Source: Arthrobacter sp. efr-133-R2A-120 (GTDB taxonomy: Bacteria; Actinomycetota; Actinomycetes; Actinomycetales; Micrococcaceae). From it: 64,000 nt of DNA. The notes beneath the pieces were generated by a model that saw only the letters and a program-made list of their open reading frames with translations, ran no database searches and was not told where the DNA came from. Shown here one piece after another: positions 8,292 through 52,694 of the stretch (its first letter is position 1; each line of letters starts with the position of its first letter). Position numbers and translations under genes: made by a program. Location of the stretch: NCBI RefSeq assembly GCF_030209835.1, contig NZ_JARVRF010000005.1, positions 60,277 through 124,276 of the forward strand, in the 5' to 3' direction.

Positions 8292-8302
8292 GAGCAGCAG
8301 CA

Positions 8303-33473: not shown

Positions 33474-33475
33474 CG

Positions 33476-34416: not shown

Positions 34417-34426
34417 AATGAAGCGC

Positions 34427-35743: not shown

Positions 35744-35928
35744 GCGCAAACTCCCAACTCGCCATTGAATCGCTGGATCGACGGCCCAAACCCGCGTGGG
35801 AACAAGGAGAGGAGCCCGTGTCACCCGATTGTAACCCCCTGCGGCATCTACTTGTGATGCGAGTCACTCACCGGACAGTTGCCACGGAACCGGGAATTGG
35901 CTCATCGTCAGCGATGGAAAGAGGAGAA

Positions 35929-37719
35929 ATGCCTGAGACCGCAAACGGCATAGCCGAGGCTTGGCTGGCGCAGTTCGATGAGGCGCTGCGCAGCAACAAC
36001 ACCGAGGCTGCACTGGAACTGTTCGAAGACGAATCGTATTGGCGCGACTTCGTTTCCTTCACATGGAACTTGAAGACCCTCGAGGGCAAGTCCGAGATCA
36101 AGCGGATGCTGGACGCCACGCTCCCGAACGTGCAGCCAAGCAACTGGAAACTCGCCGAAGATGCTACGGGCGATGCGGCGAACACCGAGGCCTGGCTCGA
36201 CTTTGAAACTGCGCAGGCTCGTGGCCACGCACACCTTCGGCTGCGCAACGGCAAGTGCTGGACCCTGCTCACCACGATGCAGGAACTCAAGGGTTTCGAG
36301 GAAAAGAAGGGCCCTAACCGGGAGCAAGGAGTGGCCCACCACATCAGCAAGGGCCGCAAATCCTGGCTCGAACTCAAGGAAGAGCAAGAAGCCAAGCTGG
36401 GCTACGAGGAGCAGCCCAACACTGTCATCATTGGCGGCGGCCAGGGCGGGATCGGCCTCGGAGCGCGGTTGCGCAGGCTCGGCGTCTCCACCATCGTCGT
36501 CGAGAAGAACGAGCGCCCGGGCGACTCCTGGCGCAACCGCTACAAGTCGCTGCACCTGCACGACCCCGTCTGGTACGACCACTTGCCCTACATGAAGTTC
36601 CCGGACGACTGGCCCGTCTTCGCAGCCAAGGACAAGATCGGCGATTGGCTGGAGCACTACACCCGGATCATGGAACTGAACTACTGGTCCAAGACCGAGT
36701 GCACCAACGCCCGGTGGGACGAGGACCGCGGCGAGTGGGAAGTCAGCCTCATGCGCGACGGCGAACCGGTCACCTTGCGTCCGAAGCAGCTGGTGTTCGC
36801 CTTGGGCGTCTCCGGGTACCCGAACGTCCCCGTGTTCGACGGCGCCGAGAGCTTCCTGGGGCAGCAGTACCATTCCTCCAAGCACCCAGGCGGCGGTGAC
36901 TGGACCGGCAAAAAGGCCGTGGTGATCGGCTCGAACAACTCGGCTCACGATATCTGCGCAGACCTGTGGGAACACGGCGCCGAGGTCACCATGGTCCAGC
37001 GCTCGTCCACGCACATCGCCCGGAGTGAGTCCCTGATGGACCTGGCGCTCGGCGATCTCTACTCGGAAAAGGCGTTAGCCAACGGAGTCACCACCGAGAA
37101 AGCCGACCTTCTCTTCGCTTCCTTGCCGTACCGGATCCTGCCAGAGGCCCAGACTCCTGTCTACAGGCAGATGGCGGAGCGCGACGCCGAGTTCTACTCC
37201 CGGCTTGAGGCGGCCGGTTTCGATCTCGACTTTGGAGTGGACGGCTCGGGCCTCTTCCTGAAGTACTTGCGACGAGGCTCCGGCTACTACATCGACGTCG
37301 GTGCATCCCAGCTGATCATCGACGGACGCGTGAAACTCGCGAACGGCCAGGTCAGCAAGATCACCGGGAACGCCGTGGTGATGGACAACGGCACTGAGCT
37401 CGAAGCCGACGTCATCATCTACGCCACCGGCTACGGCTCCATGAATGGCTGGCTCGCCGACCTCGTCTCGCCCGAGGTGGCTGACGCCGTCGGGAAATGC
37501 TGGGGATACGGTTCCGACACACCCAAGGACCCCGGCCCCTGGGAAGGAGAACTGCGCAACATGTGGAAGCCCACCAACGTGCAGAACCTCTGGATCCACG
37601 GCGGAAACCTGCACCAAAGCCGGCACTACTCCAACTACCTGGCCCTGCAGCTCAAGGCCAGGGCGGAAGGCCTGCCGACCCCGGTGTACGAGCTCCAGCC
37701 ATCGCACCACACGCGCTGA
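35929..37719 (+). CDS. flavin-containing monooxygenase with N-terminal NTF2-like domain
   Basis: A 596-residue fusion. ATG 35929 follows GAGGAG. Residues about 1-125 (EAWLAQFDEALRSNNTEAAL, then WRDFVSFTWNLKTLEGKSEI) form an NTF2/SnoaL-like domain. Residues about 160-596 are a class B flavin monooxygenase with the FAD Rossmann motif VIIGGGQGGIGLGARLRRLG, the Arg/Trp segment RPGDSWRNRYKSLHLHDP, the NADPH motif VIGSNNSAHDICADLWEHGA and ATGYGSM near the C-terminus. The fingerprint FLGQQYHSSKH is close to FxGxxxH. The enzyme should hydroxylate or Baeyer-Villiger-oxidise a small substrate with NADPH and O2. The divergent GAF regulator suggests induction by that substrate. Confidence 0.88.
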   Translation: MPETANGIAEAWLAQFDEALRSNNTEAALELFEDESYWRDFVSFTWNLKTLEGKSEIKRMLDATLPNVQPSNWKLAEDATGDAANTEAWLDFETAQARGHAHLRLRNGKCWTLLTTMQELKGFEEKKGPNREQGVAHHISKGRKSWLELKEEQEAKLGYEEQPNTVIIGGGQGGIGLGARLRRLGVSTIVVEKNERPGDSWRNRYKSLHLHDPVWYDHLPYMKFPDDWPVFAAKDKIGDWLEHYTRIMELNYWSKTECTNARWDEDRGEWEVSLMRDGEPVTLRPKQLVFALGVSGYPNVPVFDGAESFLGQQYHSSKHPGGGDWTGKKAVVIGSNNSAHDICADLWEHGAEVTMVQRSSTHIARSESLMDLALGDLYSEKALANGVTTEKADLLFASLPYRILPEAQTPVYRQMAERDAEFYSRLEAAGFDLDFGVDGSGLFLKYLRRGSGYYIDVGASQLIIDGRVKLANGQVSKITGNAVVMDNGTELEADVIIYATGYGSMNGWLADLVSPEVADAVGKCWGYGSDTPKDPGPWEGELRNMWKPTNVQNLWIHGGNLHQSRHYSNYLALQLKARAEGLPTPVYELQPSHHTR

Positions 37720-37738
37720 AGCGGTAAACACGCACGTT

Positions 37739-37784
37739 CGACGGCGGCACCCAGCCTTTCCGCGGAAGGCGGGGGCCGCCGTCG
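37739..37784 (+). terminator. terminator after monooxygenase gene
   Basis: CGACGGCGGC (37739) pairs with GCCGCCGTCG (ending 37784). A second small stem, GCCTTTCCGCGGAAGGC, sits inside the loop. Confidence 0.6.
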
Positions 37785-37871
37785 TCGTGTGATCCGCGTC
37801 TCAGCAGGAATAGTTGCAGGCGCGCGGCAGTTGCCCCCAGTGGACCCGTTCCCGCTTGAAAGGCACTGCCC

Positions 37872-38942
37872 ATGTTGTTTTCTCCTTTGACTCTTGGCGA
37901 GATTGAACTTTCCAACCGCTTGGTCATGGCGCCCCTGACCCGTGTCCGATCGGGCGCCGAAGGCATTCCCGGCCCGTTGGTTGTGGAACACTACCGGCAG
38001 CGTGCCTCCCTCGGGCTGATCGTCAGCGAGGGCACCTACCCGACGCCGGCAGGCAAGTCCTACCCGGGCCAGCCCGGCCTCGTCACGGAGGAACAGGTCG
38101 CGGGCTGGAAGAAGGTGACAGACGCCGTCCATGCTGAAGGCGGCCGGATGTTCGCCCAGGTCATGCACGGTGGGCGCGTCTCCCACGCGGACATTACTGG
38201 CGGGCATGAGATCGTGGCACCCAGTGCCGTGGCCATCGACGGCGAAGTCCGCACGCAGAATGGCAAGAAGCCGTACCCGGTGCCCCGCGAACTGAGCACT
38301 GATGAACTTCCCGCAGTGATCCAGGAAATCGTCACGGCATCCAGGAACGCCATCGAGGCAGGATTCGACGGCGTCGAACTGCACTCTGCCAACGGTTACC
38401 TGCTGCACGAATTCCTTGCCCCCAACACCAACGTCCGAACTGACAGCTACGGTGGCTCCCCGGAAAACCGGGCCCGCTTCGTGATCGAGACGGTCAACGC
38501 GGTGGTTGAAGCCTTGGGCGCCAACCGGGTGGGCATCCGGATTTCCCCGGAGCACTCGGTCCAAGGAATCGCCGAGACCGACCCCGCCGATGTCCGCGCC
38601 ACCTATGAAGTCCTGGTGGACACCATTGCGTCGCTCAACCTCGCCTACCTCAGCATCCTCCACCATGATCCCAAGGGTGAACTCGTGCAGGACCTGCGCG
38701 AGCGTTTCAACGGCACGTTCCTGGTGAACACCGGCTTCGGTGTAGTGACCACTCGGGATGAAGCCCTGGCACTCGTGGCCGACGGTCACGCCGATGCCGT
38801 GGTGGTTGGCCGGCCGGCCATTGCCAACCCGGACCTTGCGCGCAGGTGGCGTGAAGGCCTCCCGCTCAACGAACCGGACCCGTCCACGTTCTATGGCGAA
38901 GGCGCCAAGGGGTACACCGACTACCCGTTCTACGCCAACTAG
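37872..38942 (+). CDS. Old Yellow Enzyme-family alkene reductase (NADH:flavin oxidoreductase)
   Basis: A 356-residue FMN TIM-barrel of the OYE family that reduces activated C=C bonds (enals, enones, nitro compounds). It has NRLVMAPLTRVRSG at the FMN end, the substrate-binding HxxN pair in VELHSANGYLLHEFLAP, and NVRTDSYGGSPENRARF. The phosphate-binding end is VVVGRPAIANPDL. GAAAGG precedes the ATG. It is a single gene between two hairpins, so it is probably its own transcription unit. Physiological substrate unknown. Confidence 0.9.
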   Translation: MLFSPLTLGEIELSNRLVMAPLTRVRSGAEGIPGPLVVEHYRQRASLGLIVSEGTYPTPAGKSYPGQPGLVTEEQVAGWKKVTDAVHAEGGRMFAQVMHGGRVSHADITGGHEIVAPSAVAIDGEVRTQNGKKPYPVPRELSTDELPAVIQEIVTASRNAIEAGFDGVELHSANGYLLHEFLAPNTNVRTDSYGGSPENRARFVIETVNAVVEALGANRVGIRISPEHSVQGIAETDPADVRATYEVLVDTIASLNLAYLSILHHDPKGELVQDLRERFNGTFLVNTGFGVVTTRDEALALVADGHADAVVVGRPAIANPDLARRWREGLPLNEPDPSTFYGEGAKGYTDYPFYAN

Positions 38943-38955
38943 AACACCCGAACCC

Positions 38956-38988
38956 CGACGGCGGCACCTGCGAAAGGTGCCGCCGTCG
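38956..38988 (+). terminator. terminator after OYE gene
   Basis: CGACGGCGGCACCT (38956-38969) and AGGTGCCGCCGTCG (38975-38988) form a perfect 14-pair stem with a five-base loop, 14 bases after the stop. The same GACGGCGGC word builds the hairpin at 37.7 kb. Confidence 0.8.
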
Positions 38989-39056
38989 CGGTTTAACCGA
39001 GCGGGAGAGGCTTCAGAGTCTGTCCCGGGCGTCCGAGGCCGCTACAAAGGGACCAT

Positions 39057-39066
39057 TCCTATAGGA
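39057..39066. promoter_or_regulatory. putative GntR operator (autoregulatory)
   Basis: TCCTATAGGA, a perfect ten-base palindrome, ends eight bases before the gntR start. The same word recurs at 40014-40023 in front of the catabolic operon. A related ATATAGGAT lies at about 39916. The repeat before both units points to binding by the GntR protein encoded between them. Confidence 0.6.
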
Positions 39067-39073
39067 TTTGTCT

Positions 39074-39772
39074 ATGAAACTCGCTTCCTCACGGGACCGC
39101 GCCCCTGGCCGACCCGTCAGCCGCCAGGTTCTCGCCGACCACGTCTACGAGGAACTTCTCGCGTGGCTCATGGACGGCCGGCTCGAACCAGGAGCCGCGG
39201 TCAGCATCGACGGGACGGCGCGGGAATTGGACGTTTCGCCGACACCCGTGCGAGAGGCACTGGCGCGGCTGGAGCACACAGGCATGGTCCGCCGGGTCGC
39301 CCTCAAGGGTTACAGGGTGGCCCCGGTGTTCACGCGCGAGGATTTTGCCGAACTCATGGAGGCCAGGCTCGCGATTGAGCCCGTGAATGCGCGCTTGGCG
39401 TGCAGCCGGATCACGCCGGAGGATTTGGCGGCTTTACGAGAGGCTGTGAAGGACCTGGAGACTGCTCCTCGAGGCCCGTCTTTCGTGGAATTCCGGGACT
39501 ATCTAGAGGCCGATGAGCGCTTCCATAAGCTGATCGCCGAGCAGTCCGGCAATCAATTCATGCTTGCCGCCTACTCCGCGCTGGGCGGCCAGGTCCAGCG
39601 GTTCCGGCTGTTCGGGGGAGTGGGCATCACCGACGCGGACCAAGCCATCGCGGAACACCAAGCGGTGCTCGACGCGCTGGCGAGCGGTGACCCGGAACAG
39701 GCCGCAGCCGCCATGGCCGACCACGTGCACAAGGTCCGGGCCCGGGCCATCGCCGACGCTCCCGCTGACTGA
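39074..39772 (+). CDS. GntR-family regulator, FCD subfamily
   Basis: A 232-residue regulator. ATG 39074 follows AGGAT; TTG 39068 is less likely. The N-terminal winged helix reads VYEELLAWLMDGRLEPGAAV then ELDVSPTPVREALARLEHTGMV. The FCD effector domain has an acidic helix (FAELMEARLAIEPVNARLA) and metal-binding positions in DERFHKLIAEQSGN and AEHQAVLDAL, with the later histidine in MADHVHKVRA. FCD regulators answer to sugar acids or related metabolites. It precedes the tetrulose-type operon and shares an operator-like word with it, so it probably represses that operon. Confidence 0.88.
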   Translation: MKLASSRDRAPGRPVSRQVLADHVYEELLAWLMDGRLEPGAAVSIDGTARELDVSPTPVREALARLEHTGMVRRVALKGYRVAPVFTREDFAELMEARLAIEPVNARLACSRITPEDLAALREAVKDLETAPRGPSFVEFRDYLEADERFHKLIAEQSGNQFMLAAYSALGGQVQRFRLFGGVGITDADQAIAEHQAVLDALASGDPEQAAAAMADHVHKVRARAIADAPAD

Positions 39773-39835
39773 ACCGTCGCCTACAGGCCGAGTCCGACGG
39801 CGATCAAGACGGCGACCCGACGCCGCCAGACCCTC

Positions 39836-39859
39836 AAGGCCCGTCTAACGGCGGGCCTT
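39836..39859 (+). terminator. terminator of gntR
   Basis: AAGGCCCG (39836) pairs with CGGGCCTT (ending 39859) around eight bases and is followed by TTGTGTG. It separates gntR from the operon that starts at 40052. Confidence 0.65.
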
Positions 39860-39988
39860 TTGTGTGCATGGCGAAGGCGATATCTCGTGACCCTCTTCAC
39901 AAACATATGTAAGACATATAGGATCTTTGATGACGCCAGGCGGGGTGCGAAAAGGCGGGGCCGGCCTGCGGAAATCCAAATAAACATG

Positions 39989-40023
39989 TTGACAGCCTCG
40001 TCCAGATAGTAAATCCTATAGGA
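39989..40023 (+). promoter_or_regulatory. promoter and operator of the tetrulose-type operon
   Basis: TTGACA at 39989-39994 is a consensus -35 box. The -10 region expected 17-19 bases on (40012-40019) is overlapped by the palindrome TCCTATAGGA (40014-40023), so a bound repressor would block RNA polymerase. The first gene starts at 40052 after GAAGGAG. Confidence 0.6.
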
Positions 40024-40051
40024 AACAGGATTCCACGAAGGAGTGAAAACT

Positions 40052-41089
40052 ATGGCTTACACCGCCGAAACCTGGCCCATCACCGCGGCCCTGCTCCAGT
40101 TCCCCGGCACTGACACAACCGGACAGCACATCAACGACGCCGATGCTTCCGCTTGGGCCGAGGTCCTGCAGGAAGTCAAGGACGCAGGATTTGCCAACGC
40201 AGACCTCACGGACAGCTGGGTCCGCCCCGGCGACCTCAGCAAAGAACGCCTCGCCGAGTTCAAACAGACCGCAGAACACGTTGGCATTGGCATCCCCGTC
40301 ATCTCGGCCATCCGCCGCAGCGTCATTCACACCCGCGACTGGGCAGAGAACCTGGCGTACAGCCACCGCACTATCGAGGCCGCGGCCGAATTGGGCTGCG
40401 AGGTTGTCTCCTTCGGACTCCACCAGGCCATCACCGCCGAGCAGCAAAAGCAGCTGTGGTTCTGGACGGTGGAAGGATACAAGGACCCGGTGGGGGACAA
40501 GGAAACCTGGGGCAACGCCGTCGCCCGCTTGCGGGAACTCGGTGAGCACGCCGCGGAAGTCGGCATTCTGCTGTCCCTCGAAATGTACGAGGACACCTAC
40601 CTCGGCACCGCCGACTCCTCGGTCCAGCTGGTGCAGGACATAGGGCTGGACAACGTTGGCCTCAACCCGGACCTTGGCAACCTCATCCGACTCCACCGTC
40701 CCATCGAGGACTGGCGCGAGATGGTAGCCAAGACCCTGCCGTACTCCAACTACTGGCACATGAAGAACTACATCCGCGACGAAGACGTGGCCCGCGACAG
40801 CTACATCACCATGCCCGCGCCGATGGAGAGCGGCCTCATCAACTATCGCGAGGCCTTCAAGCTCGCGCTGTCGGTAGGCTTCCAAGGCATCCTGTGCACC
40901 GAGCACTACGGCGGCGACGGGCTCAGCGTGACGGCGAGCAACCAGGAATACCTCCGGCGGCAGGTCCTTCCGAAGACAGAGAACTACGTCCTTGGCCAGA
41001 GCCAGGTTGCCCAGGGCCGGCAGCAGCCTTCCGGCCGGACCGCCCCCGCGACACCCCCGTCCGCATCCTCCGAACTGGCTGGAGTGTAG
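40052..41089 (+). CDS. TIM-barrel sugar isomerase/epimerase-like enzyme (AP-endonuclease-2 fold)
   Basis: A 345-residue protein of the xylose-isomerase-like superfamily. ATG 40052 is preferred to GTG 40043 because GAAGGAG precedes it. Likely metal ligands are visible: Glu in LLSLEMYEDTY, Asp in VGLNPDLGNL, His in NYWHMKNYI and Glu in GILCTEHYGGDG. Members isomerise, epimerise, dehydrate or decarboxylate sugars and sugar acids. The last 35 residues are low in structure (Pro/Ala/Ser-rich). It is first in an operon with a dihydroxyacetone-type kinase and pentose-isomerase-like proteins. It may form the ketose that the kinase phosphorylates. The reaction itself is inference. Confidence 0.8.
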   Translation: MAYTAETWPITAALLQFPGTDTTGQHINDADASAWAEVLQEVKDAGFANADLTDSWVRPGDLSKERLAEFKQTAEHVGIGIPVISAIRRSVIHTRDWAENLAYSHRTIEAAAELGCEVVSFGLHQAITAEQQKQLWFWTVEGYKDPVGDKETWGNAVARLRELGEHAAEVGILLSLEMYEDTYLGTADSSVQLVQDIGLDNVGLNPDLGNLIRLHRPIEDWREMVAKTLPYSNYWHMKNYIRDEDVARDSYITMPAPMESGLINYREAFKLALSVGFQGILCTEHYGGDGLSVTASNQEYLRRQVLPKTENYVLGQSQVAQGRQQPSGRTAPATPPSASSELAGV

Positions 41090-41091
41090 CC

Positions 41092-42846
41092 ATGACAAGG
41101 ATTTTCGACAACCCCGCAGACTTCGCGGACGATGCTTTGGACGGATTCGTCGCCGCCAACCGCGGCTATGTTGCCCGCGTGGACGGCGGAGTGGTCCGTT
41201 CCACCGAAGTCCCCTCCGGACAGGTCGCCCTCGTGGTGGGCGGCGGCTCGGGACACTACCCTGCGTTCGCCGGACTGGTCGGGCCGGGCCTGGCAACCGC
41301 CTCGGCGTGCGGCAACATGTTCGCCTCCCCGGCGGCGGGCCAGGTCTACCGCGTAGCCAAAGCAGCCAACGCCGGAGGCGGCGTCCTGCTCAGCTACGGC
41401 AACTACGCGGGCGACGTTTTGCACTTCGGCCAGGCTCAGTTGCGCCTCAACGCGGAAGGCATCGAGACCCGCACCGTGACCGTTACCGACGACATCGCCA
41501 GCGCTCCGTTGGACCAGATCGAAAAACGGCGGGGAATCGCGGGCGATCTCACGGTCTTCAAGATCGCTGGCGCCGCGGCCGAAGCGGGACTGGACCTCGA
41601 CGCCGTCGAGCGCTTGGCGATCAAGACGAACTACCGCACACGCTCGCTGGGTGTGGCGTTCGACGGGTGCACCCTTCCGGGTGCCTCGGATCCACTGTTC
41701 CACGTTCCGGCCGGTCAGATGTCCCTCGGCCTCGGCATCCACGGTGAGCCAGGCATCTCCGAGCACAAAATGCCCACCGCTTCAGAGCTCGCCGAACTGC
41801 TCGTCTCGAGGCTCCTCAATGACAAACCGGACGACGCCGGAAACCGCGTGGTGGCGATCGTCAACGGCCTCGGCACCGTCAAGTATGACGAACTCTTCCT
41901 GCTCTTCGGCAAGATCGAAAAGCTCCTCAGCAAAGCGGGCCTCACCGTGGTGGAGCCCGAGTGCGGCGAGCTCGTGACAAGCCTGGACATGTCCGGTCTT
42001 TCGCTCACGCTGCTTTGGCTGGACGAGGAGCTCGAGCAATATTGGGCAGCACCCGCCGACACCCCGGCATTCCGCAAGGGTAACCTCGCGCCCCGCCGGC
42101 CCCGCAAGCAAGGGAGCGTCACCGCCGTGGACGCGTCCGACGTCGAGCAGCCCACCGCGGCCGCTGCCGGACTCGGGCGGCAGGCCGTGGCCGTGCTCGC
42201 CCAGATGCGGGACGTCGTCGTCGAGCATGAAGAAGAACTCGGCAAGCTGGACGCGATTGCCGGCGACGGCGACCACGGCATCGGCATGCGACGCGGCGTC
42301 GACGCGGCCTTCGCCGCCGCCGAGACGGCAAGCGGAGCCTCGGTGGGGCGGATCCTGACGGCGGCGGGTGAGGCCTGGAGCGAACGCGCCGGCGGAACCT
42401 CGGGCGCGCTGTGGGGCTCGGCGATCATCGCGGCAGGACAGGCGCTCGGCAACAAAGCGGGCTACTCCGGCGAGGATGCCGCGGCTGCCGTCACCGGCTT
42501 TGTGGACGCGATCACCGAGCTTGGCAAGGCCGAACCTGGCGATAAGACCATGGTGGACGCGCTGCTGCCGTTCCGGGATGCATTCCTGACAGAGTTCGAC
42601 GCCGGAGCCCCGGTTGACCGGGCCCTCGCGGCTGCTGCTGCGGCAGCCGAGGCCGCGGCAGCTGAGACAGCCGGCTTGCGTCCGCTCAAGGGCCGGGCCC
42701 GTCCGCTCGCTGAGAAGAGCCTGGGCCACCCTGATCCTGGCGCGGTGTCCTTCGGGCTGATCACGGCGAGGATCTCACAACATATCGATTCACAGCTGGG
42801 CGGTTCACTGCTAGCGCCCCCAGCAGGAAACGGAGTTAAAGCATGA
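41092..42846 (+). CDS. fused ATP-dependent dihydroxyacetone/erythrulose kinase (DhaK-DhaL)
   Basis: A 584-residue two-domain kinase. The N-terminal DhaK domain (about 1-335) has [12 protein letters not shown], with the histidine that binds the keto substrate covalently in [12 protein letters not shown]. The C-terminal DhaL ATP domain (about 365-575) has [16 protein letters not shown], then [12 protein letters not shown] and [12 protein letters not shown], providing the Mg and ATP sites. The single-chain layout means ATP, not PTS phosphate, is the donor. In tetritol pathways of mycobacteria, such kinases (LerK, DerK) act on erythruloses. The operon partners fit that use better than glycerol breakdown. 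It overlaps the next gene by ATGA. Confidence 0.9.
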
Positions 42847-43325
42847 CCACATCAGCAGGCTGGCGGATCATCGTCGGCAACGACGAAGCCGGCGTCGAAT
42901 ACAAGCAGGCACTCATGGCACTGCTTGAAGCCGATCCCCGGGTGGCGTCCGTAAGCGACGTGGGGGTCGGGGCCAACGACTCCACCGCCTACCCGCACGT
43001 TGCCGTGGAGGCGGCACGCAAAGTAGCCGCGGGCGAAGCGGACCGTGCCCTGTTGATCTGCGGCACGGGCTTGGGCGTGGCCATCGCGGCCAACAAAGTC
43101 CCCGGAATCCGTGCCGTCACCGCGCACGACAGCTACTCCGTGGAGCGTTCGGTCCTGAGCAACAACGCCCAGGTCCTGACCATGGGACAGCGGGTGATTG
43201 GCTTGGAACTGGCCAAGAAACTCGTGGGCGAATGGCTGGGCTACCACTTCGACGAGACATCATCTTCCGCCGCCAAGGTGGACGCCATTTGCTCCTACGA
43301 GCCCGATTACACAAAGGCAGTGTGA
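42843..43325 (+). CDS. RpiB-family isomerase (tetrulose-phosphate isomerase EryI/DerI-like)
   Basis: A 160-residue LacA/RpiB-family sugar-phosphate isomerase. The N-terminal motif is [10 protein letters not shown], where ordinary RpiB has GSDHAGFx[21 protein letters not shown], with the catalytic Cys, and [14 protein letters not shown] are conserved. YPHVA replaces the usual YPD. In Brucella (EryI) and mycobacteria (DerI), paralogues of this kind convert D-erythrulose 4-phosphate to D-erythrose 4-phosphate. The presence of a kinase and a TPI paralogue in the same operon supports that role. ATGA overlap with the kinase gene. Confidence 0.85.
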
Positions 43326-43326
43326 C

Positions 43327-44316
43327 ATGACTGAATCAACAAGCAGCGCCGCAGGCGACGGAAGCGCGGCCCGGAAGATCGCCGTCGTCGGCTCCGGTTA
43401 CATGGGCGGCGGGATCGCGCAGGTGCTGGCCCTCGGCGGGGCACGCGTGGCGTTGGCGGATGTGTCCGCGGAAATCGCGCAGAAGAACTACGACCGCCTG
43501 CTGGTGGAGTCGGACGAATTCGTGGCCGCGGGCCTCTTTCCTGAAGGTTCCACGGCAATCCTGAAAGCCAATCTGTGGGCCGCGAAGGACATCGAAGAGG
43601 CCGTGGTGGACGCCGACTTCATCGAAGAAGCCGTTCCAGAGGTCCTCGACATCAAGCACCAGACCCTCGCCCGGATCAGCGCGGCCGCCCGTCCTGACGC
43701 CCTGATCGGGTCCAACACCTCCACCATTTCCATCGCCGATCTCGCCGAGGCCGTCGTCGGTCCGGAGCGATTCCTGGGCGTGCACTTCTCCAACCCGTCG
43801 CCGTTCATTCCCGGCGTCGAGATCATTCCTCACGCCGGCACCACACCCGAGACCGTGGCCGCGTCCCGCGAACTGGTCCACGCGGCCGGCAAGCAAACCG
43901 CCGTCGTCAAGGACGTCACTGGTTTCGTGCTTAATCGGCTGCAATACGCGCTTTTCCACGAGGCCGCGCAGCTGGTGGAGCAAGGGATCGCAACAGCGGA
44001 CGACGTCGACACCCTCGTCCGTACGACGTTCGGCTTCCGCTTGCCGTTCTTTGGTCCATTCGCGATCGCGGATATGGCCGGACTGGACGTCTACAACTTC
44101 TGCTACAAATCCCTGCAGACCGGATTCCCGGAACGCTTCGCCACCCCGAAGATCCTGAGCGACCTCGTCGAGGCGGGAAAGCTCGGGACCAAGACCGGCG
44201 CAGGATTCCTCAACGTCCCGGCGGAACGCACGCCCGAACTCATCGCCTACCGGAACAAGGCCTACGTGGCCATGCAGAAGCTCATTGATGAGCTCGGCCC
44301 GGCACCCATCAACTAG
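43327..44316 (+). CDS. 3-hydroxyacyl-CoA dehydrogenase-family oxidoreductase
   Basis: A 329-residue NAD-dependent dehydrogenase. ATG 43327 lies two bases after the rpiB-like stop. The Rossmann motif is VVGSGYMGGGIAQVLALGG, the catalytic His lies in GVHFSNPSPFIPG, and the C-terminal helical domain begins TGFVLNRLQYALFHEA. There is no crotonase domain or acyl-CoA operon, so fatty-acid oxidation is unlikely. Relatives such as L-gulonate 3-dehydrogenase oxidise a hydroxyl of sugar acids. In this operon it probably oxidises a sugar acid or polyol before the kinase step. Substrate is inference. Confidence 0.83.
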   Translation: MTESTSSAAGDGSAARKIAVVGSGYMGGGIAQVLALGGARVALADVSAEIAQKNYDRLLVESDEFVAAGLFPEGSTAILKANLWAAKDIEEAVVDADFIEEAVPEVLDIKHQTLARISAAARPDALIGSNTSTISIADLAEAVVGPERFLGVHFSNPSPFIPGVEIIPHAGTTPETVAASRELVHAAGKQTAVVKDVTGFVLNRLQYALFHEAAQLVEQGIATADDVDTLVRTTFGFRLPFFGPFAIADMAGLDVYNFCYKSLQTGFPERFATPKILSDLVEAGKLGTKTGAGFLNVPAERTPELIAYRNKAYVAMQKLIDELGPAPIN

Positions 44317-44341
44317 CCCCACCATTCACAGGAGAATACCC

Positions 44342-45109
44342 ATGAGCACTTTCCCCGCAGAACGCACCGCGATCGTCACCGGCGCCGTTTCCGAGCGCGG
44401 CATCGGCCGGGCCACCGTCAACTACTTGGCCGCACAAGGCTGGAACATCGGCATCATCGATTTGGACGACGCCCTGTGCAAGAGCACCGCGAAGGAAATC
44501 GCCGCCGAATATGGCGTCCAGGCCTATGGCGTGGGCGCCAACGTGGCCGATGAAGCATCCGTGCGCTCGGCGATCGACACGCTCGAGGCCGAGCTGCCGC
44601 AGATCGTCGCCCTGGCCAACGTTGCCGGCGTCAGCTCGCCCATCGGATACCTCGAACTCGAGCCCGCAGAGTGGAACCGCGTCCTGAACATCAACCTCAA
44701 CGGCGTCCACTATGCCACCCGCCGTGTGGCCGAATCCATGGTCAAGAACCGGATCGGACGCATCGTGAACATCTCCTCCGTTTCCGCACAGCGCGGCGGC
44801 GGGACGTTCTCCAAGACCCCGTACTCGGTGGCAAAGGCCGGAGTCATCGGCCTGACCCGCGCAACCGCCCGCGAACTGGGTGAGTACGACATCACCGTCA
44901 ACGCCATCTCTCCCGGCCCGATCGACACCGACATCATGGGCGGCACCCTCAGCCAGGAACGCAAGGACGAACTCACCAAGGACCTCGTGGTGAACCGCGT
45001 TGGCTCCACCCGGGACATCGCCGCCGCCATCGCCTTCCTCATCAGCGAGGACTCCGGTTACATCTCGGGCCAGACGCTGAATGTCGACGGCGGCTTGTAC
45101 ATGCACTAA
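44342..45109 (+). CDS. short-chain dehydrogenase/reductase
   Basis: A 255-residue classical SDR from ATG 44342 (AGGAGAA upstream). The cofactor motif is TGAVSERGIGRATV. An acidic end of strand 2 (IGIIDLDD) implies NAD(H) preference. LANVAGVSSP and the catalytic Ser-Tyr-Lys set in VNISSVSAQ and PYSVAKAG are intact. SPGPIDTDI and SGQTLNVDGGL follow. It is the second dehydrogenase of the operon and could oxidise a tetritol or hydroxy acid to the keto form. Substrate unknown. Confidence 0.88.
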   Translation: MSTFPAERTAIVTGAVSERGIGRATVNYLAAQGWNIGIIDLDDALCKSTAKEIAAEYGVQAYGVGANVADEASVRSAIDTLEAELPQIVALANVAGVSSPIGYLELEPAEWNRVLNINLNGVHYATRRVAESMVKNRIGRIVNISSVSAQRGGGTFSKTPYSVAKAGVIGLTRATARELGEYDITVNAISPGPIDTDIMGGTLSQERKDELTKDLVVNRVGSTRDIAAAIAFLISEDSGYISGQTLNVDGGLYMH

Positions 45110-45196
45110 TTCCGGACCGCACCACCCTTTGACATGCCCCAACCCTGACTACTCAGCTCTGATTACTCAACAGTCATTACTCAAAGAGGAGTTTCG

Positions 45197-46546
45197 ATGT
45201 CCCTTGCCAGTTTATCCACGAAGGAGATGCTGGATTCGCCGGTCCTAAGATCGGCGATCCGCAAGGCTGCCACCCGGCTCATGCCGATGCTGGTCATCCT
45301 CTATGTGGTCTCCTTCCTCGACCGCACCAACGTTGGTTTCGCTGAAGCCGCCCTCGGCGCGGACAGAGGCGTCTCGGCCGGAGCGTTCGCGCTCGGGGCC
45401 GGCATCTTCTTCATCGGTTACGCAATCTTTGAAATCCCCAGCAACCTGCTGCTCAAAAGGGTCGGCGCCAAGATCTGGCTCGCCCGCATCGCGATCACGT
45501 GGGGCCTCGTTTCGGCCTGCTTTGCTTTCGTACAGGGCGAGACATCCTTCGTGATTCTGCGGTTCCTGCTCGGCGTGACCGAGGCGGGACTGTTCCCGGG
45601 CGTCATCATGTACCTGGCAGAGTGGTTCCCGAACAAGGTACGCGTGCAGATGTTCGCGATCTTCTACCTCGCCCAGCCGTTCTCCCAGATGATCGGCAAC
45701 CCACTCTCCGGCTGGCTCATCAACATCGGCGACCAGATTCCGGGCGTCCGTGGTTGGCAGGTCATGTTCTTCACCGAGGGCATCCTGGCCGTGCTCGCTG
45801 GCGTTGCGGCGTTCTTCTTCCTGATCAACGGGCCGGAGAAGGCCAAGTTCCTCAACGTCGACGAGAAGTTCGCGCTCAAGGAGATCATGGCGCAGGAAGA
45901 CACGGTCAAGGATGAAACGGGGCCGCGAGGCGTGTTCGCAGCGATGCGCAACGGCCGCGTTTGGTACTTCACGATCATCTACTTCTGCCTGCAGATCGCC
46001 GTCTACGGGGTCACCTTCTTCTTGCCGCAGCAGGTTTCCTCGCTGACCGGCCAGAAGGTGGGCCTCGCCGTCGGCCTGCTGATCGCGGTTCCGTGGTTCT
46101 TCGGCATCTTCTCCTGCTACCTGATCGGCCGTGCGGCGAACACCGTTGCCAAGCGCCGCATGTTCGGCACCGTGCTGTTCCTGTCCACGGGTGTCTGCAT
46201 CCTCGGTTCGGCGTGGGCCGGGACCAACCACCAGCCGGTGCTCGGGCTGATCTTCATCACGCTCGCGGTGTGCAGCTTCCTGGCAGTCGGTCCGGTGGTT
46301 TGGGCCTACCCGACGGCGTTCCTCGCCGGCTCCGCGGCCGCCGCCGGTATTGGCCTGATCAACTCGCTGGGTAACCTGGGCGGTTTCGTGGCCCCGATCC
46401 TGCGGACCGCGGTCAACAGCGCCACCGCCGACCCCACGGGATCGGCTGGCGTCTACGCACTGGGAATCCTTCCGTTCCTGGCGGCCGCCATGATGCTCGG
46501 CACCCGGGCGTTCAAGAACAAGGCCGACGATCTCCTGGGCAAGTAG
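45197..46546 (+). CDS. MFS transporter, anion:cation symporter (ACS) family
   Basis: A 449-residue, 12-TM major facilitator. The ACS hallmarks are VVSFLDRTNVGFAEAAL after TM1 and IFEIPSNLLLKRVGAKIW, then GVTEAGLFPGVIMYLAEWFP. ACS members carry organic anions (tartrate, hexuronates, phthalate, phosphorylated sugars), which hints that the pathway substrate is a sugar acid rather than a neutral polyol. It starts 87 bases after the SDR gene with GAGGAG ahead of the ATG. It is presumably the uptake protein of the operon. Confidence 0.88.
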   Translation: MSLASLSTKEMLDSPVLRSAIRKAATRLMPMLVILYVVSFLDRTNVGFAEAALGADRGVSAGAFALGAGIFFIGYAIFEIPSNLLLKRVGAKIWLARIAITWGLVSACFAFVQGETSFVILRFLLGVTEAGLFPGVIMYLAEWFPNKVRVQMFAIFYLAQPFSQMIGNPLSGWLINIGDQIPGVRGWQVMFFTEGILAVLAGVAAFFFLINGPEKAKFLNVDEKFALKEIMAQEDTVKDETGPRGVFAAMRNGRVWYFTIIYFCLQIAVYGVTFFLPQQVSSLTGQKVGLAVGLLIAVPWFFGIFSCYLIGRAANTVAKRRMFGTVLFLSTGVCILGSAWAGTNHQPVLGLIFITLAVCSFLAVGPVVWAYPTAFLAGSAAAAGIGLINSLGNLGGFVAPILRTAVNSATADPTGSAGVYALGILPFLAAAMMLGTRAFKNKADDLLGK

Positions 46547-46550
46547 TCCC

Positions 46551-47312
46551 TTGTACATCGGTGTCAGCACCAAGATGTACATGGGCTACCGGCACAGCAT
46601 GTCTTGGCTGGAGCAACTCCGAAATGAAGTGGACGCCCGTCCGGCCCTGGTGGCCGGGCGGGTGGTCCCGTTTGTGATCCCGTCGTTCCCCATGCTGCCC
46701 GACGCGGCCCGGATACTGGAAGGCTCTCCGCTGCGCCTGGGCGCGCAAAACTGCGGCTGGGCTGAGGGTCCGTGGACGGGTGAAGTGTCACCGTCATTGC
46801 TGGCGGAGCTGGGTGTGCGGCTCGTGGAGATCGGACACGCGGAACGGAGGCGGCACTTCGCCGAAGACGACGCCGTGGTCGCATTGAAGGTCCGGGCCGC
46901 GGTGGACGCCGGGCTGACCCCGCTGTTGTGCGTCGGCGAGGAGGCTGTCGCCGATCCGGCAGTGTCGGCGTCGTTCGTGTTCCGGCAGATCTCCGCCGCC
47001 GTCCGGGACGACTGGGCGACGGCGGCCCGCCTGGTTATCGCGTACGAACCGGTGTGGGCCATCGGCGCGGCCGAGCCGGCCCGCGCAGCTTACGTGTCCG
47101 ACGTCGTCGCTCACCTCCGGGGCTTGCTCGCCGAACATGGCCTCGCCGAGCTGCCGATCATTTACGGCGGCTCGGCCAAACCGGGGCTCCTGCCCGAACT
47201 GCAGGGCGTGTCCGGACTCTTCCTAGGCCGCTTCGCGCACGACCCCGCGAACTTCGGGGCTGTACTCGACGAAGCGCTGGGCTTGCCCAAAGCCCTGAGC
47301 TTGCCCAACTGA
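46551..47312 (+). CDS. triose-phosphate-isomerase paralogue (tetrulose-phosphate EryH/LerI-like)
   Basis: A 253-residue TIM barrel starting at TTG 46551, four bases after the transporter stop. It differs from housekeeping TPI. The N-terminal NWKMN becomes STKMYMGY, keeping the Lys. The catalytic His stays in EIGHAERR (Ala for Ser) and the catalytic Glu in IAYEPVWAIGAAEPA, but loop 6 is altered (AAEPA for TGKTA). IYGGSAKPGLL retains the phosphate site. These changes are typical of EryH/LerI, which interconvert L- and D-erythrulose phosphates. With the kinase and RpiB-like protein this would complete the route to D-erythrose 4-phosphate. The coding end lies inside the hairpin at 47303-47370. 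Confidence 0.85.
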   Translation: MYIGVSTKMYMGYRHSMSWLEQLRNEVDARPALVAGRVVPFVIPSFPMLPDAARILEGSPLRLGAQNCGWAEGPWTGEVSPSLLAELGVRLVEIGHAERRRHFAEDDAVVALKVRAAVDAGLTPLLCVGEEAVADPAVSASFVFRQISAAVRDDWATAARLVIAYEPVWAIGAAEPARAAYVSDVVAHLRGLLAEHGLAELPIIYGGSAKPGLLPELQGVSGLFLGRFAHDPANFGAVLDEALGLPKALSLPN

Positions 47313-47370
47313 GTCGCATTTGTTGTCGTTTTCAGGCCTCAAAACGACAACTAATGCGAGCCAGTTGGGC
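47303..47370. terminator. bidirectional hairpin, dispersed repeat copy B
   Basis: Two 30-base arms (47303-47332 and 47341-47370) pair with three mismatches around an eight-base loop. The left arm runs GCCCAACTGAGTCGCATTTG then TTGTCGTTTT. The T-runs on both strands suit termination in both directions. The hairpin contains the stop codons of both convergent genes: the TPI paralogue ends in it and the nuclease ends SPTGSH in it. It shares most of its arm with the palindrome at 15658-15723. Confidence 0.85.
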
Positions 47371-50300
47371 TGGACCGCTGGCATAGTCCGACAAAACCGC
47401 CCAACTGTTCCAGCCCTTCCGGCCGGGTGGGCAGGTAGTTTGTCAGCTCCGGTGAGCGTACGACGACGGCGCGCCACTGACCGCGCGACACCGCCACATT
47501 GATCCGGTTGCGTGAGAGCAGGAACTCCATGCCGCGCGGTACCTCGGCCGCAGCGGACGCAGCCATGGACACGATCACCACGGGAGCTTCCTGGCCTTGG
47601 AACTTGTCGACGGTCCCGACCCGCACACCGCGAAGTCCGGCCGCCCTCAGTTCGTGTTGGATGAGCTGGACCTGGGCGTTATAGGCCGCCACTACGAGGA
47701 TGTCCTTTTCAAGCAGAGGCCGTTCCTCGGCCGATTCCCGGGAGTCCAGCCACCCCAAGCCAAGGTGTTCCTTGACTTGGCGGACCACCTCCGCGGCTTC
47801 TTCGGGCGACTGGGTGGAGTTGCCGCTGTGCGGGACGTAGACGCACTCGACGCCGGACCGAACTCCGGACAAACGCCGCCCGGAAGCGGCCGGTGCTGAA
47901 TGCAGCCGGCCATCGTAGGACAGCTCCGACACGGCACCACACAAATCCGGGTGCATTCGCCACGACGTCGCGAGGAAGTAGCCGAGATCCGCGGGCAGCG
48001 TGTGCATGCCGTGGGCCAGCCAGCCGAGAGCAGACTCGTCGACCGGTTCGGGGTGCTTGCCCTGCGTGACTTGGGGCAATTGCTGTGGGTCGCCGAGGAG
48101 CAGCAGCCTCTTGGTTGCCCGGCTCACGGCGAGGGTATTGGCGAGCGAGAACTGACCGGCTTCGTCGATCACCAGCAAGTCCAGGGACTGCGCCGAGACG
48201 GTCCGGCCCGTCATGGTCCATGCCGTGCCGCCGATCAAGCAGCCTCCCGGCGATTCAAGCAGTCGTTCAATGTCGTCCTTGGTCTGCTGGTCCCAGGGAA
48301 CGGGGTCGTCATGCTTCACTTCCTTGGCGATGAGCGCAGGATGCACCCCCGCCCGCACTGCGGCGTGGAGCATGTTCTCGACGACGGCGTGGGACTGTGC
48401 AACAACCCCTACCTTCCAGCCAGCACGCACCAGCCGCGCGACAACGTGCGAGCCAACGTAGGTCTTGCCCGTTCCCGGCGGCCCTTGGACGGCAAGGTAT
48501 GACCGGTCCAGATCCGACACGGCAGCGGTGATGGCGTCCACATAAGCATCGTCGCCGGACCCGACGGCGGGCAGTTCCGCAAGCGTAACCAGCCGAGGCG
48601 GGATCCGGCGCAAGAGGTCCAAGGCCGGATCCTTTGGCCACGACGGCAGGCTGGAACGCACCTTGATGGCCAGTTCGCTCAAGGCCTTCCGCTGCCCGTC
48701 CGTGTTGACTGGAGCATCGGGCGTCAATGCCATGGGAAGCTGCGAGTATTCCTCGGCACCTTTGGGCAGTCGCTCTGAAATGGTCACAACGTCCGAGACG
48801 CCATCGTCAGGCTCCGAAACCGTGCTGCCGTCATAGGGGTCGTCGGGATCGCGGACCTCGATCACCTCTGTGCCGGACATTCCCGATCTGCCGAGGGCGC
48901 TTTCGTTCTTGCCAAGGAAGGCATCGGGGAGTGGAGGCCCGTACATCCGGAAGAACTTCTTACCGGGCGCGAAACCGGAGCCGTCGGCGGCGTGGCCGAT
49001 CAGCCGTACCTTCCGGGCCGGGTTGCTGCGCGGAGTCGGCTTGGCCCAGTCCGCCAGCACTTCGCCGCCTTCCACGATGAAGCAGTCCCTGGTGTCCTCC
49101 CACTCTGAGACGGGCCGGTCCAAGCGGTCGAAGTGTCCCCACCAGAATTGCTTATCTTCCCGGCGGTGAAATCCAACCGCGGCCGCAACCAGCGACACCG
49201 CTCGGTTGTCGTCGGATCGGAGCGCTTCGTCCGGCAATTCCGCAAGGTAGTCGAGGAGGGCTGTTTCCTCGGGTGCGGCCTCGTACTTGTCCGGCTCGGT
49301 CTCCGCGGGTAGCCCGGGTCCCGAAGCAGCCGGAAGACCGGGTTCAATAGAGCGCTCCGCTGCCAGGCCCAGCAGCCAATTCCGCAGTTCCAGGGTGGAG
49401 AGGCAGTCGTATTCGTTGTAGTCGGAGATGCCCGCCAGGATTGTTGCCGCTTCATCTTCGCGGTTCGCGTCCCGGGCCGTGCAGTAGTTGGCGTAGGCAA
49501 CCACGGAGGCTCCGGCGTCGGTCACGTCACCCGAACGCAAATGCTTGCCCATGTACAGGGGTTCGAGTTTCTTGATGCTGTAGGAGTCTTCAGAGATGCG
49601 GATGCTGTGCCGGACGGTGTCGTAGAGGTCCACCAGCACGCCTTCGCGCAGGAGGTTGTCCACGGCGGCTTCGCCTACGGTGTGGATGACCGACAGGTTC
49701 CGCAGCGCGGTTTTCTCATAGGCAGCGTAGTGGTAGATCCGCATATCCGGATACTTCATGCGGCGTTCTTCCACGTAGTCGAGGAAATCGATGAACGCCT
49801 GCCGTTCCTCAGCCCGGGAATGTGCCCAGAACGGCTTGAACACCGGAACTTCGCCCGGCTCCGTCGGATTTTCGATCACCCCGAACAAGTACTCCAGTCC
49901 CCAGCGGCCGGTTACCGGGTCTTGCCACAGTGGGTCTCCCTCGAAGTCGAAGAAGATGTCTCCTGCGTCGGGCCGGGGGAGCCGGGCCAAGGAGTTGGAC
50001 TCCAGGACGGAATAGCTGATGCTCTTCGCCGTGCCGGTCTTATCGGTGTAATTGACGGTGCCATCGGGTGTGGCTGTCCCGGTTTGCAGTCGGGCTTGTT
50101 CCTGTAGGCGCCGGGTGGCGGAATCGGCGGCGTCGGGCATCCCAGCAAGGGCGTCGATGTTAAAGATCCCTGCTTCCATGAGCTTCTTGCGCCGGGTGAT
50201 CCTCATTCCCGCCACCATCAGCAGGTCCCTGTGGAGGCGCACTTGTTCCTTGCAGTAGTCGCAGCGACCGCAAGCGGTGATTCCCGGCGCGCCCCATTGG

Positions 50301-51031
50301 ATAGGCTCCAGTCGCGATCGGTGCGAGTCCGTCAAGGCGAGGAAGCGGTCCCGGCGTTCACGGAAGACCGGCAGCACATCGGCGAGCCGGTGGTTGCTGT
50401 GCACATAGTCGAAGCCGCCACGGCCGTCCGATTCAGCAGCGTCCCGACCGGCAGCGTCCCGCTGAATGGTGGCACCTAGGACAAGGGTCAGGTCCGGGGC
50501 CGGAGTAATTCCGGCCTTGAGTAGCTGCTCGCCGTAGGCCGCTAGTTGCAGCAGCGCGGTGACCTTGGCGTGGCGGGCGAGCTTGGTGTCGTACACCGCG
50601 TAGCTGCCGTCCGGCTGCTTGACGAGGAAATCGGACCGTCCGTGAAACTGACCGTCGAAGAACGCGGCCTGGAAGACCACATCCGCGCCGGATCGCAACG
50701 CCTCGATGGATTCCGCGTGCTTGGCTTGCAGGGTGGCGCGGTCCATCGCTTCGGCGGGAACGACGTCGAACACGCCCTTGCGCGCCAGCGGATCCCAAGC
50801 GCCGAACTCGGCCACGAAACGGTCCAGCACCCTGTGCTCGTGAATGTCGCCCAGCGCGGCGGTCCGTTCCAGCATTTCATCGACGTCGAAAGCGGGCTTC
50901 TCCGAACGGCCCAGCTTCTCATCCAACTTGCGCAGCAACTGGTACTCGCAGGTGGAGGCCGTCACGAGGTCGCTGGCGGAAAACACCAAATCCTGCGCTT
51001 GCCCTGTATCTACCGAATCGAGAAAAAACAC
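47351..51031 (-). CDS. TM0106-family RecB-like nuclease fused to SF1 helicase
   Basis: A 1226-residue multidomain nucleic-acid enzyme. GTG 51031 is preferred (VFFLDS start, G-rich site) to an upstream TTG without one. Domain 1: a RecB-type PD-(D/E)xK fold with GRSDFLVKQPDG and YAVYDTKLA (about 147), plus an early Cys (STCEYQ) and ACGRCDYCKEQ (about 257), suggesting a Cas4/AdnB-like iron-sulfur staple. Domain 2: a DEDD exonuclease-like fold starting DIFFDFEGDPLW (about 360) and ending YNEYDCLSTLELRNWL. Domain 3: SF1 helicase with GPPGTGKTYVG (about 850), LLVIDEAGQFS, LLLLGDPQQLPQ, SWRMHPDL and VDKFQGQEAPVV, then NRINVAVSRGQ. Likely DNA repair or processing. No operon partner. Confidence 0.87.
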   Translation of the reverse strand: MFFLDSVDTGQAQDLVFSASDLVTASTCEYQLLRKLDEKLGRSEKPAFDVDEMLERTAALGDIHEHRVLDRFVAEFGAWDPLARKGVFDVVPAEAMDRATLQAKHAESIEALRSGADVVFQAAFFDGQFHGRSDFLVKQPDGSYAVYDTKLARHAKVTALLQLAAYGEQLLKAGITPAPDLTLVLGATIQRDAAGRDAAESDGRGGFDYVHSNHRLADVLPVFRERRDRFLALTDSHRSRLEPIQWGAPGITACGRCDYCKEQVRLHRDLLMVAGMRITRRKKLMEAGIFNIDALAGMPDAADSATRRLQEQARLQTGTATPDGTVNYTDKTGTAKSISYSVLESNSLARLPRPDAGDIFFDFEGDPLWQDPVTGRWGLEYLFGVIENPTEPGEVPVFKPFWAHSRAEERQAFIDFLDYVEERRMKYPDMRIYHYAAYEKTALRNLSVIHTVGEAAVDNLLREGVLVDLYDTVRHSIRISEDSYSIKKLEPLYMGKHLRSGDVTDAGASVVAYANYCTARDANREDEAATILAGISDYNEYDCLSTLELRNWLLGLAAERSIEPGLPAASGPGLPAETEPDKYEAAPEETALLDYLAELPDEALRSDDNRAVSLVAAAVGFHRREDKQFWWGHFDRLDRPVSEWEDTRDCFIVEGGEVLADWAKPTPRSNPARKVRLIGHAADGSGFAPGKKFFRMYGPPLPDAFLGKNESALGRSGMSGTEVIEVRDPDDPYDGSTVSEPDDGVSDVVTISERLPKGAEEYSQLPMALTPDAPVNTDGQRKALSELAIKVRSSLPSWPKDPALDLLRRIPPRLVTLAELPAVGSGDDAYVDAITAAVSDLDRSYLAVQGPPGTGKTYVGSHVVARLVRAGWKVGVVAQSHAVVENMLHAAVRAGVHPALIAKEVKHDDPVPWDQQTKDDIERLLESPGGCLIGGTAWTMTGRTVSAQSLDLLVIDEAGQFSLANTLAVSRATKRLLLLGDPQQLPQVTQGKHPEPVDESALGWLAHGMHTLPADLGYFLATSWRMHPDLCGAVSELSYDGRLHSAPAASGRRLSGVRSGVECVYVPHSGNSTQSPEEAAEVVRQVKEHLGLGWLDSRESAEERPLLEKDILVVAAYNAQVQLIQHELRAAGLRGVRVGTVDKFQGQEAPVVIVSMAASAAAEVPRGMEFLLSRNRINVAVSRGQWRAVVVRSPELTNYLPTRPEGLEQLGGFVGLCQRSSPTGSH

Positions 51032-51140
51032 CGTGCCCCCAGACCATTGAGCTGATGAAGCCAAGCTATCAGTGCGGTCCGACAGTAAGGCAGCTTTGGC
51101 GGTGGGGGCCAGTTCAGGTGCGGGTCAGCGGTGGCGGGGG

Positions 51141-52615: not shown

Positions 52616-52630
52616 CTCTTCCACCTCCGT

Positions 52631-52656
52631 CTTTATTATATAAGTTATAGAACAAG
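52631..52656. promoter_or_regulatory. AT-rich divergent promoter/operator between YtrA-type gene and deaminase
   Basis: CTTTATTATATAAGTTATAGAACAAG is the only AT-rich block in the area. It contains the palindrome GTTATAGAAC-like half sites (GTTCTATAAC on the minus strand) and TTATATAA. It lies 16-41 bases before the regulator start and about 40-65 before the deaminase start, so it should hold promoter elements for one or both. Exact boxes are not assigned. Confidence 0.4.
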
Positions 52657-52694
52657 TAGCGGAAGATTCCCACCTCCCGGAAAGCAGGCTTCGA

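Follow-up and report, generated by a model that had tools for sequence, protein, structure and literature searches.

An Arthrobacter operon predicted to lead from a sugar acid via erythrulose to erythrose 4-phosphate

Operons for tetritols and erythrulose, with the enzymes EryH/EryI and Ler/Der, were reportedly presented by Huang in 2015. D-apionate is said, after Carter et al. in 2018, to be degraded via a 3-oxo-isoapionate decarboxylase in a pathway with ApnO, OiaC, LerK, LerI and DerI. In the L-gulonate route, an L-gulonate 3-dehydrogenase is followed by a 3-oxogulonate decarboxylase, and dehydratase routes are known for pentonic acids. One article names apionate enzymes with EC numbers and describes another bacterium which uses D-apiose as sole carbon source (PMC11747546). 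In the genome of Arthrobacter sp. efr-133-R2A-120 (5.12 Mb in 81 contigs), an operon of eight genes on the + strand (39068-47312) was identified, which shares parts with these systems. It lies in a stretch of 64,000 nucleotides of contig NZ_JARVRF010000005.1 (positions 60,277 to 124,276), which was analysed as a whole and is called the window; positions are those of the window unless another contig is named.

The operon is predicted to lead from a C5 sugar acid over a 3-oxo acid and erythrulose to erythrose 4-phosphate, and the probability that this whole chain is right is put at roughly one half. The genes, with their Pfam bit scores, are:

39068..39772, + strand: GntR/FCD-family regulator, likely the local switch (GntR 50.1, FCD 115.1)
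40052..41089, + strand: TIMB, xylose-isomerase-like TIM barrel, predicted 3-oxo-acid decarboxylase yielding erythrulose (OiaC-like role) or, less likely, 3-epimerase (AP_endonuc_2 90.9)
41092..42846, + strand: fused DhaK-DhaL kinase (DAK), predicted erythrulose kinase (LerK-like role; Dak1 371.5, Dak2 156.3)
42843..43325, + strand: RpiB paralogue, predicted D-erythrulose 4-phosphate isomerase (DerI-like; LacAB_rpiB 155.3)
43327..44316, + strand: HCDH, 3-hydroxyacyl-CoA-dehydrogenase (3HCDH) fold, predicted C3 dehydrogenase of a free sugar acid (3HCDH_N 164.5, 3HCDH 85.2)
44342..45109, + strand: SDR, predicted to oxidise another stereoisomer to the same 3-oxo acid as HCDH (adh_short_C2 208.3)
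45197..46546, + strand: MFS transporter of the anion:cation symporter (ACS) type, predicted sugar-acid importer (MFS_1 150.8)
46551..47312, + strand: TPI paralogue, predicted L-erythrulose 1-phosphate isomerase (LerI-like; TIM 177.5)

All of these Pfam assignments lie above the curated cut-offs, and the starts at 40052, 41092, 43327 and 44342 were chosen manually within longer open reading frames. The first-pass annotation had described these eight families as tightly spaced on one strand, with which open reading frames and Pfam agree: 279 bases separate the GntR gene from the TIMB gene, and the following spacings are 2, -4, 1, 25, 87 and 4 bases. For the MFS protein, the top NCBIfam model is the D-galactonate transporter TIGR00893 (269.8 bits, below the cut-off of 395), and the SDR reached no NCBIfam cut-off among the 25 families listed of 224.

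From gene content, gene order, conservation, the exchange of partner genes between loci and the types of the paralogues, all of which were observed directly, we infer the substrate and all reactions. The MFS protein would import a five-carbon sugar acid, the C3 hydroxyl of which HCDH would oxidise to a 3-oxo acid, while the SDR probably oxidises a second stereoisomer to the same product. TIMB would decarboxylate the 3-oxo acid to erythrulose, and the fused DhaKL would phosphorylate erythrulose at C1. The TPI-like protein may then convert L-erythrulose 1-phosphate to D-erythrulose 4-phosphate, from which the RpiB-like protein would form D-erythrose 4-phosphate, to be used in the pentose phosphate pathway.

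The tetritol operons have the trio of kinase, RpiB-like and TPI-like protein in common with the window operon. A cluster on an Arthrobacter plasmid, which is likely of the tetritol type, carries two alcohol dehydrogenases and an ABC importer besides DAK, RpiB and TPI, whereas the window operon has a beta-hydroxyacid-type dehydrogenase, a TIM barrel and an acid-type importer. This importer is an MFS protein, and a Pfam scan of ten genes (35914-47312) gave no ABC domain; the SDR might be a polyol dehydrogenase. Like the window operon, the L-gulonate route uses a 3HCDH-fold enzyme which oxidises an aldonate at C3, followed by decarboxylation to a ketose, but there a C6 acid is converted to a pentulose and the decarboxylase has another fold.

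The closest likeness in gene content, i.e., a dehydrogenase and a PF01261 TIM barrel together with DAK, TPI-like and RpiB-like protein, is found in clusters of the apionate type. Plasmid pPAT9B04 of Pantoea encodes RpiB, MFS, DAK and TPI along with a PGDH_C protein and a TIM barrel of 270 aa, and on p42f of Rhizobium etli an annotated oiaX is accompanied by TPI, RpiB, a PGDH_C protein and a four-carbon acid sugar kinase. We take the PGDH_C protein to be ApnO and the 270-aa TIM barrel to be OiaC, after the apionate pathway attributed to Carter et al. 2018. The own genome of the Arthrobacter strain harbours a second cluster (L126, C81:138001-158000, at 7810-14036) with ACS, DAK, RpiB, TPI, an OiaC-type TIM barrel and an ApnO-type PGDH_C protein, the last two being 52% and 62% identical to those of Pantoea. 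The PGDH_C protein also matches KARI_N, which fits an oxidoisomerase. In the window operon the DAK, TPI-like and RpiB-like trio of this type is present, but a 3HCDH fold stands in place of the PGDH_C/KARI-like protein and an SDR is added, whereas the ten genes scanned include no ABC importer, no Gfo/Idh and no SMP-30 protein. They also include no ApnO-type PGDH_C protein, and two ApnO-type queries as well as the OiaC type gave no match in 33001-53000 at E 1e-12. TIMB is not an orthologue of the OiaC type (BLASTP E 0.22 and 0.002 against two OiaC-type reference proteins, which are 52% identical to each other), though a profile similarity remains. Since the own genome has a separate ApnO/OiaC cluster with its own trio, the window operon seems to be a second line and apionate an unlikely substrate. 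The erythrulose-phosphate trio is already known, and the front end was matched to no known system. No description of this gene set was found in the literature searched, which covers few subscription papers.

The operon is conserved. A TIMB profile search of genome contigs gave 546 relatives, the nearest from Arthrobacter and Paenarthrobacter, and the best 80 were mapped by tblastn. The order TIMB-DAK-RpiB-HCDH-SDR-ACS-TPI on one strand is complete in 65 of these 80, a few of which (L061, L107, L114) show a gene in several tblastn pieces. The remaining 15 comprise two short contigs ending inside the kinase gene (L051, L054), nine loci with TIMB-DAK-RpiB-HCDH without matching SDR, ACS and TPI (L096-L101, L103-L105), and four which vary (L053, L063, L074, L091). 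This seven-gene order marks a conserved unit, beyond chance. At E 1e-30, TIMB was found in 13 of 296 genomes of the class and in 77 of 297 Micrococcales genomes, with the own genome counted, and the HCDH query (E 1e-70) matches 68 of the latter 297. Both occur together in 65 of them, TIMB without HCDH in 12, HCDH without TIMB in 3 and neither in 217 (Fisher p 5e-49 with kinship ignored, at most 7 candidates scored per genome).

Some of these loci deserve a separate description. The nine loci without SDR, ACS and TPI, all from Micrococcaceae, contain further matches to a sugar-binding protein, two Gfo/Idh dehydrogenases, ThuA and another TIM barrel (Pfam was run on L099 of these), and L084 has the same matches in addition to the full operon. 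In each of two Micrococcaceae genomes there is a pair of TIMB operons (L062/L063 and L066/L074), of which one is complete and the other lacks a TPI match and has a diverged ACS and SDR. Several genes of the operon in L114 (Arthrobacter sp. Hiyo8) are split into two or more tblastn pieces, as would be seen after a frame shift.

The first step of the proposed chain is derived from a neighbourhood map of 81 other TIMB loci, covering -7 to +8 kb around TIMB and in part cut by contig ends; excluded were the window, the near-identical Micrococcaceae loci L024, L025 and L232-L234, and the plasmid loci L116, L117 and L134. HCDH lies near TIMB in 55 of the 81 loci (49-80% identity), a NAD_binding_2 protein in 14, the PdxA family in 9 and IMDH, a relative of isocitrate and isopropylmalate dehydrogenases, in one, where the query matches itself; at least one of these four dehydrogenase types is present in 69. 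Pfam bears out the types in L134, L026 and L029. The importers ACS, GntP and TctA were found in 12, 12 and 8 loci, respectively, and at least one of them in 29, these counts including self-matches, as one GntP and one TctA query, like one TctC and one ABC query, derive from counted loci. A GntR match (26-62% identity) is present in 44 loci and an SDR match (31-69%) in 31.

In the plasmids, the gene order is GntR-PdxA-TctC-TctB-TctA-TIMB followed by DAK on pSymB of Sinorhizobium and on a Pararhizobium plasmid, and TIMB-DAK-RpiB-GntP-NAD_binding_2-GntR on a Streptomyces plasmid. The first dehydrogenase and the importer are exchanged between TIMB loci. The reaction common to the HCDH, PdxA, NAD_binding_2 and IMDH families is the oxidation of a hydroxyl group beta to a carboxylate, and the ACS, GntP and Tct importers transport organic and sugar acids. 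Because of these family functions, the substrate would be a sugar acid oxidised at C3.

The last steps are assigned to the trio. The genome contains four RpiB-family, three TPI-family and eight Dak1 matches, so the RpiB, TPI and kinase of the operon are extra copies. Near TIMB, DAK was found in 56 of the 81 loci, RpiB in 52, TPI in 47 and the complete trio in 41. The kinase, which is predicted to act on erythrulose, passes the models NF011049 (dihydroxyacetone kinase family, 761 bits, cut-off 492) and TIGR02365 (DhaL, 142.1 bits, cut-off 138.3) and stays below the cut-off of the glycerone kinase TIGR02361 (353.8 of 574.95). By its sequence, the RpiB groups with DerI-like cluster copies apart from housekeeping RpiB: a branch with support 98/90 separates 24 cluster copies from the own copy on contig C18 and from E. 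coli RpiB, in a tree for which the program warns of long branches.

The TPI-like protein appears to be LerI-like, as it groups with copies from clusters of the apionate type and of the erythrulose-kinase type. In the tree it belongs to a set of nine rows with the own C81, the Pantoea and the Arthrobacter-plasmid copies (support 100/98), with the R. etli copy outside; E. coli TpiA, which sits on a long branch, is the sole outgroup, and the own housekeeping TPI was left out. Its second-best solved relative is the L-erythrulose-1-phosphate isomerase 11ef (E 4.8e-38), after the putative TPI 3s6d (E 1.1e-39), and no cut-off of the triose-phosphate isomerase models was reached (201.7 of 293 and 82.7 of 130.6). 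The lysine and the motifs H-x-E-R-R and E-P-V-W are retained, and the stretch past YEPVWAIG is unlike E. coli TpiA. Two types of LerI-like TPIs were seen, one with KMY / EPVWAIGA.EPA / YGGSAGPG-like motifs (window, L030, L162, L167, L172) and one with SWKMTK / EPIWAIGE.GR / YGGSV (L033, L035, L200, L228).

Further kinase genes of the same genome lie in other clusters. L127 (C10:25001-45000, at 10124-13994) holds a third set of DAK and RpiB, together with a further PF01261 TIM barrel and an SDR with 44% identity to that of the window; TPI has no match there, and genes resembling an ABC importer by eye follow on the same strand. In addition, two similar DAK copies with ABC-importer-like genes (by eye) are located at the ends of different contigs, C8 (L128) and C51 (L129).

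Four loci bring the TIMB and the apionate-type genes together. In L223, L226, L227 and L228, one kinase-RpiB-TPI set is followed by ApnO-OiaC and then by TIMB within 20 kb, and HCDH is also present in these stretches except in L226. In each of the four genomes (G419, G329, G458, G393) the TPI family is matched just twice, which presumably leaves a single LerI-like copy. This shared trio is the best single hint that the TIMB route ends at erythrulose.

Regarding the acid, a C5 compound fits better than a C4 compound, because a C4 acid minus CO2 gives a C3 ketone, which leaves the DerI-like isomerase unexplained. In some relatives, pentose glycosidases near TIMB point to pentonic acids. Five loci have a GH3 protein near TIMB, four of them in genomes with a single TPI-family match. 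The GH3 proteins of L173 and L182 lie above the NCBI cut-off for beta-xylosidase/alpha-L-arabinosidase and that of L162 below it (982 of 1050), the scan having covered these three of the five loci, which also include L164 and L165. An alpha-L-arabinofuranosidase domain was found near TIMB in L182 and L028.

By their chemistry, D-pentonates would give D-erythrulose, for which LerI is not needed, and L-pentonates would give L-erythrulose, for which it is. A single TPI-family match was counted in 16 of 79 TIMB genomes (five near-identical genomes left out; G317 and G455 among the 16 are fragmented or incomplete), so these should have no LerI, as would be expected where D-erythrulose is produced. 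For the window operon, an L-series C5 acid, e.g., an L-pentonate, is guessed because its LerI-like enzyme is present. A broader and more tentative reading sees here a general breakdown of pentonates, with C3 oxidation by at least four interchangeable dehydrogenase families, decarboxylation by TIM barrels of the 5tnv type to D- or L-erythrulose, and conversion to erythrose 4-phosphate; the LerI-like enzyme would be retained for L-series acids and absent for D-series acids such as xylonate freed with pentose glycosidases. In L031 (G235, one TPI-family match in the genome), TIMB-DAK-RpiB lies amid adenosine deaminase and nucleoside hydrolase domains, which is possibly a ribose/ribonate version.

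The first-pass annotation had proposed that the operon converges on erythrulose phosphates and that its dehydrogenase, TIM-barrel enzyme and organic-anion-type transporter form a front end. Both parts are supported, in view of an RpiB nearer to the DerI model than the housekeeping copy, of a TPI which groups with cluster copies, and of the absence of such a front end from the one tetritol-like cluster compared. The apionate-like or C4 acid which it named as a possible substrate is not borne out, given the separate ApnO/OiaC cluster, the missing orthology of TIMB to OiaC and the C3 ketone expected from a C4 acid.

Several observations weigh against the proposed chain. None of the four dehydrogenase types was found in 12 of the 81 loci, and kinase, RpiB and TPI are all missing from 21. 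A kinase is missing from 25 loci in 24 genomes, all of which have a Dak1 match, with just 38-39% identity in G059 and in fragments in G322. ACS, GntP and TctA are all missing in 52 loci, the importers of which may be beyond the reach of the queries used. The kinase models passed bear dihydroxyacetone-kinase names. The RpiB misses the DerI model NF051858 (157.1 bits, cut-off 240), for which the R. etli copy near oiaX scores 257.9 and the own housekeeping-type C18 copy 68.9, and it passes the ribose-5-phosphate isomerase equivalog TIGR02133 (199.4 bits, cut-off 168.2). The latter model is not decisive, since cluster copies (own C81 202.9, L132 204, L033 213.2) and the C18 copy (203.1) all pass it. 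Kinase sharing in L223, L226, L227 and L228 is unproven, as four genomes of the same genus (G355, G491, G513, G544) each have two full-length kinases; for L223, L226, L227 and L228, kinases were counted within the loci. Furthermore, PdxA, IMDH and 6PGDH-type dehydrogenases are able to decarboxylate alone, which would leave TIMB another job.

The job of TIMB is also the point on which the first alternative departs. The route would be the same, but TIMB would act as a ketose 3-epimerase or keto-acid isomerase, e.g., on D-/L-erythrulose, with the decarboxylation carried out by the dehydrogenase partner or occurring spontaneously. The TIMB profile matches the 3-epimerase UlaE (97.4%, score 84.3) about as well as the OiaC-type family (97.1%, 81.6), and more closely than a single OiaC-type sequence (93.9%, 56.7). 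In the structure comparison, most neighbours among the matches listed after 5tnv are ketose 3-epimerases. The entry 5tnv itself is a solved xylose-isomerase-like TIM barrel of Mycobacterium smegmatis with Mg, the title of which states no function, and a literature search for its code found no paper. The predicted model of the OiaC-type protein from the own genome is weak (pLDDT 76.6). The curated cut-offs of the L-ribulose-5-phosphate 3-epimerase models were not reached by TIMB (best 29.7 of 200). Sequence and fold fail to part a decarboxylase from a 3-epimerase here. Against an epimerase, loci without a LerI-like enzyme retain TIMB, though D-erythrulose would need no epimerase; an HCDH-type enzyme requires a separate decarboxylase, for which the operon offers no other candidate gene; and in the apionate-type cluster a PF01261 protein adjoins the dehydrogenase as well. 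An epimerase seems unlikely, though less so than the alternatives which follow.

A second apionate pathway, in which HCDH would carry out the oxidoisomerase step of ApnO and TIMB the step of OiaC, is quite improbable. It would account for the identical downstream trio, for the motifs E-x-Y-E, H-x-K and E-H-Y/W, which are common to the TIMB and OiaC-type alignments, and for the position of TIMB, which adjoins an OiaC-type gene in L223, L226, L227 and L228 and lies within 20 kb of one in L220 and L224. However, such adjoining modules argue for two substrates, the own genome already has its ApnO/OiaC-type cluster with kinase, RpiB and TPI, and the window lacks both types in the ranges searched.

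Equally doubtful is a C4 tetronate pathway, with HCDH producing 3-oxotetronate, TIMB decarboxylating or isomerising it, and DhaKL and TPI handling dihydroxyacetone phosphate. The family names of DhaKL and TPI and the two models passed by the kinase refer to C3 substrates, and tetronate clusters include the TIM-barrel-type 2-oxo-tetronate isomerase YgbM. The TIMB profile matches YgbM with just 23.2% (score 32.0), and the RpiB found in 52 of the 81 loci would be without a role. In addition, none of the ten genes scanned has a Pfam domain of four-carbon acid sugar kinases (the DUF1537 query matched nowhere, missing even the kinase of this kind which Pfam detects in L223, and is not evidence of absence). 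A plain dihydroxyacetone operon was rejected, as it leaves the extra RpiB unexplained, and so was a CoA-dependent beta-oxidation role of HCDH: the protein reached none of the cut-offs of the 20 NCBIfam families listed (best 216.6 of 500, FHMPC dehydrogenase), and the rest of that pathway is not among the ten genes scanned. The HCDH residues H153, N156, E165 and N203 are unchanged across 11 family members.

Upstream of the GntR gene, a flavin monooxygenase (35914-37719) and an old-yellow-enzyme protein (37872-38942) are encoded. Among the 80 close relatives, many have these genes near the operon. As they have no match in ten distant loci (L026-L035), they were set aside as operon members.

If the proposed chain is right, it would assign a function to a TIM-barrel family which is present in 77 of 297 Micrococcales genomes and on rhizobial plasmids and which has a solved structure in 5tnv. 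It would also add, to the routes which end at erythrose 4-phosphate, a modular one that starts from sugar acids and has an exchangeable importer and first dehydrogenase. Genomes bearing the LerI-like enzyme would then be expected to use L-series acids, and those without it D-series acids.

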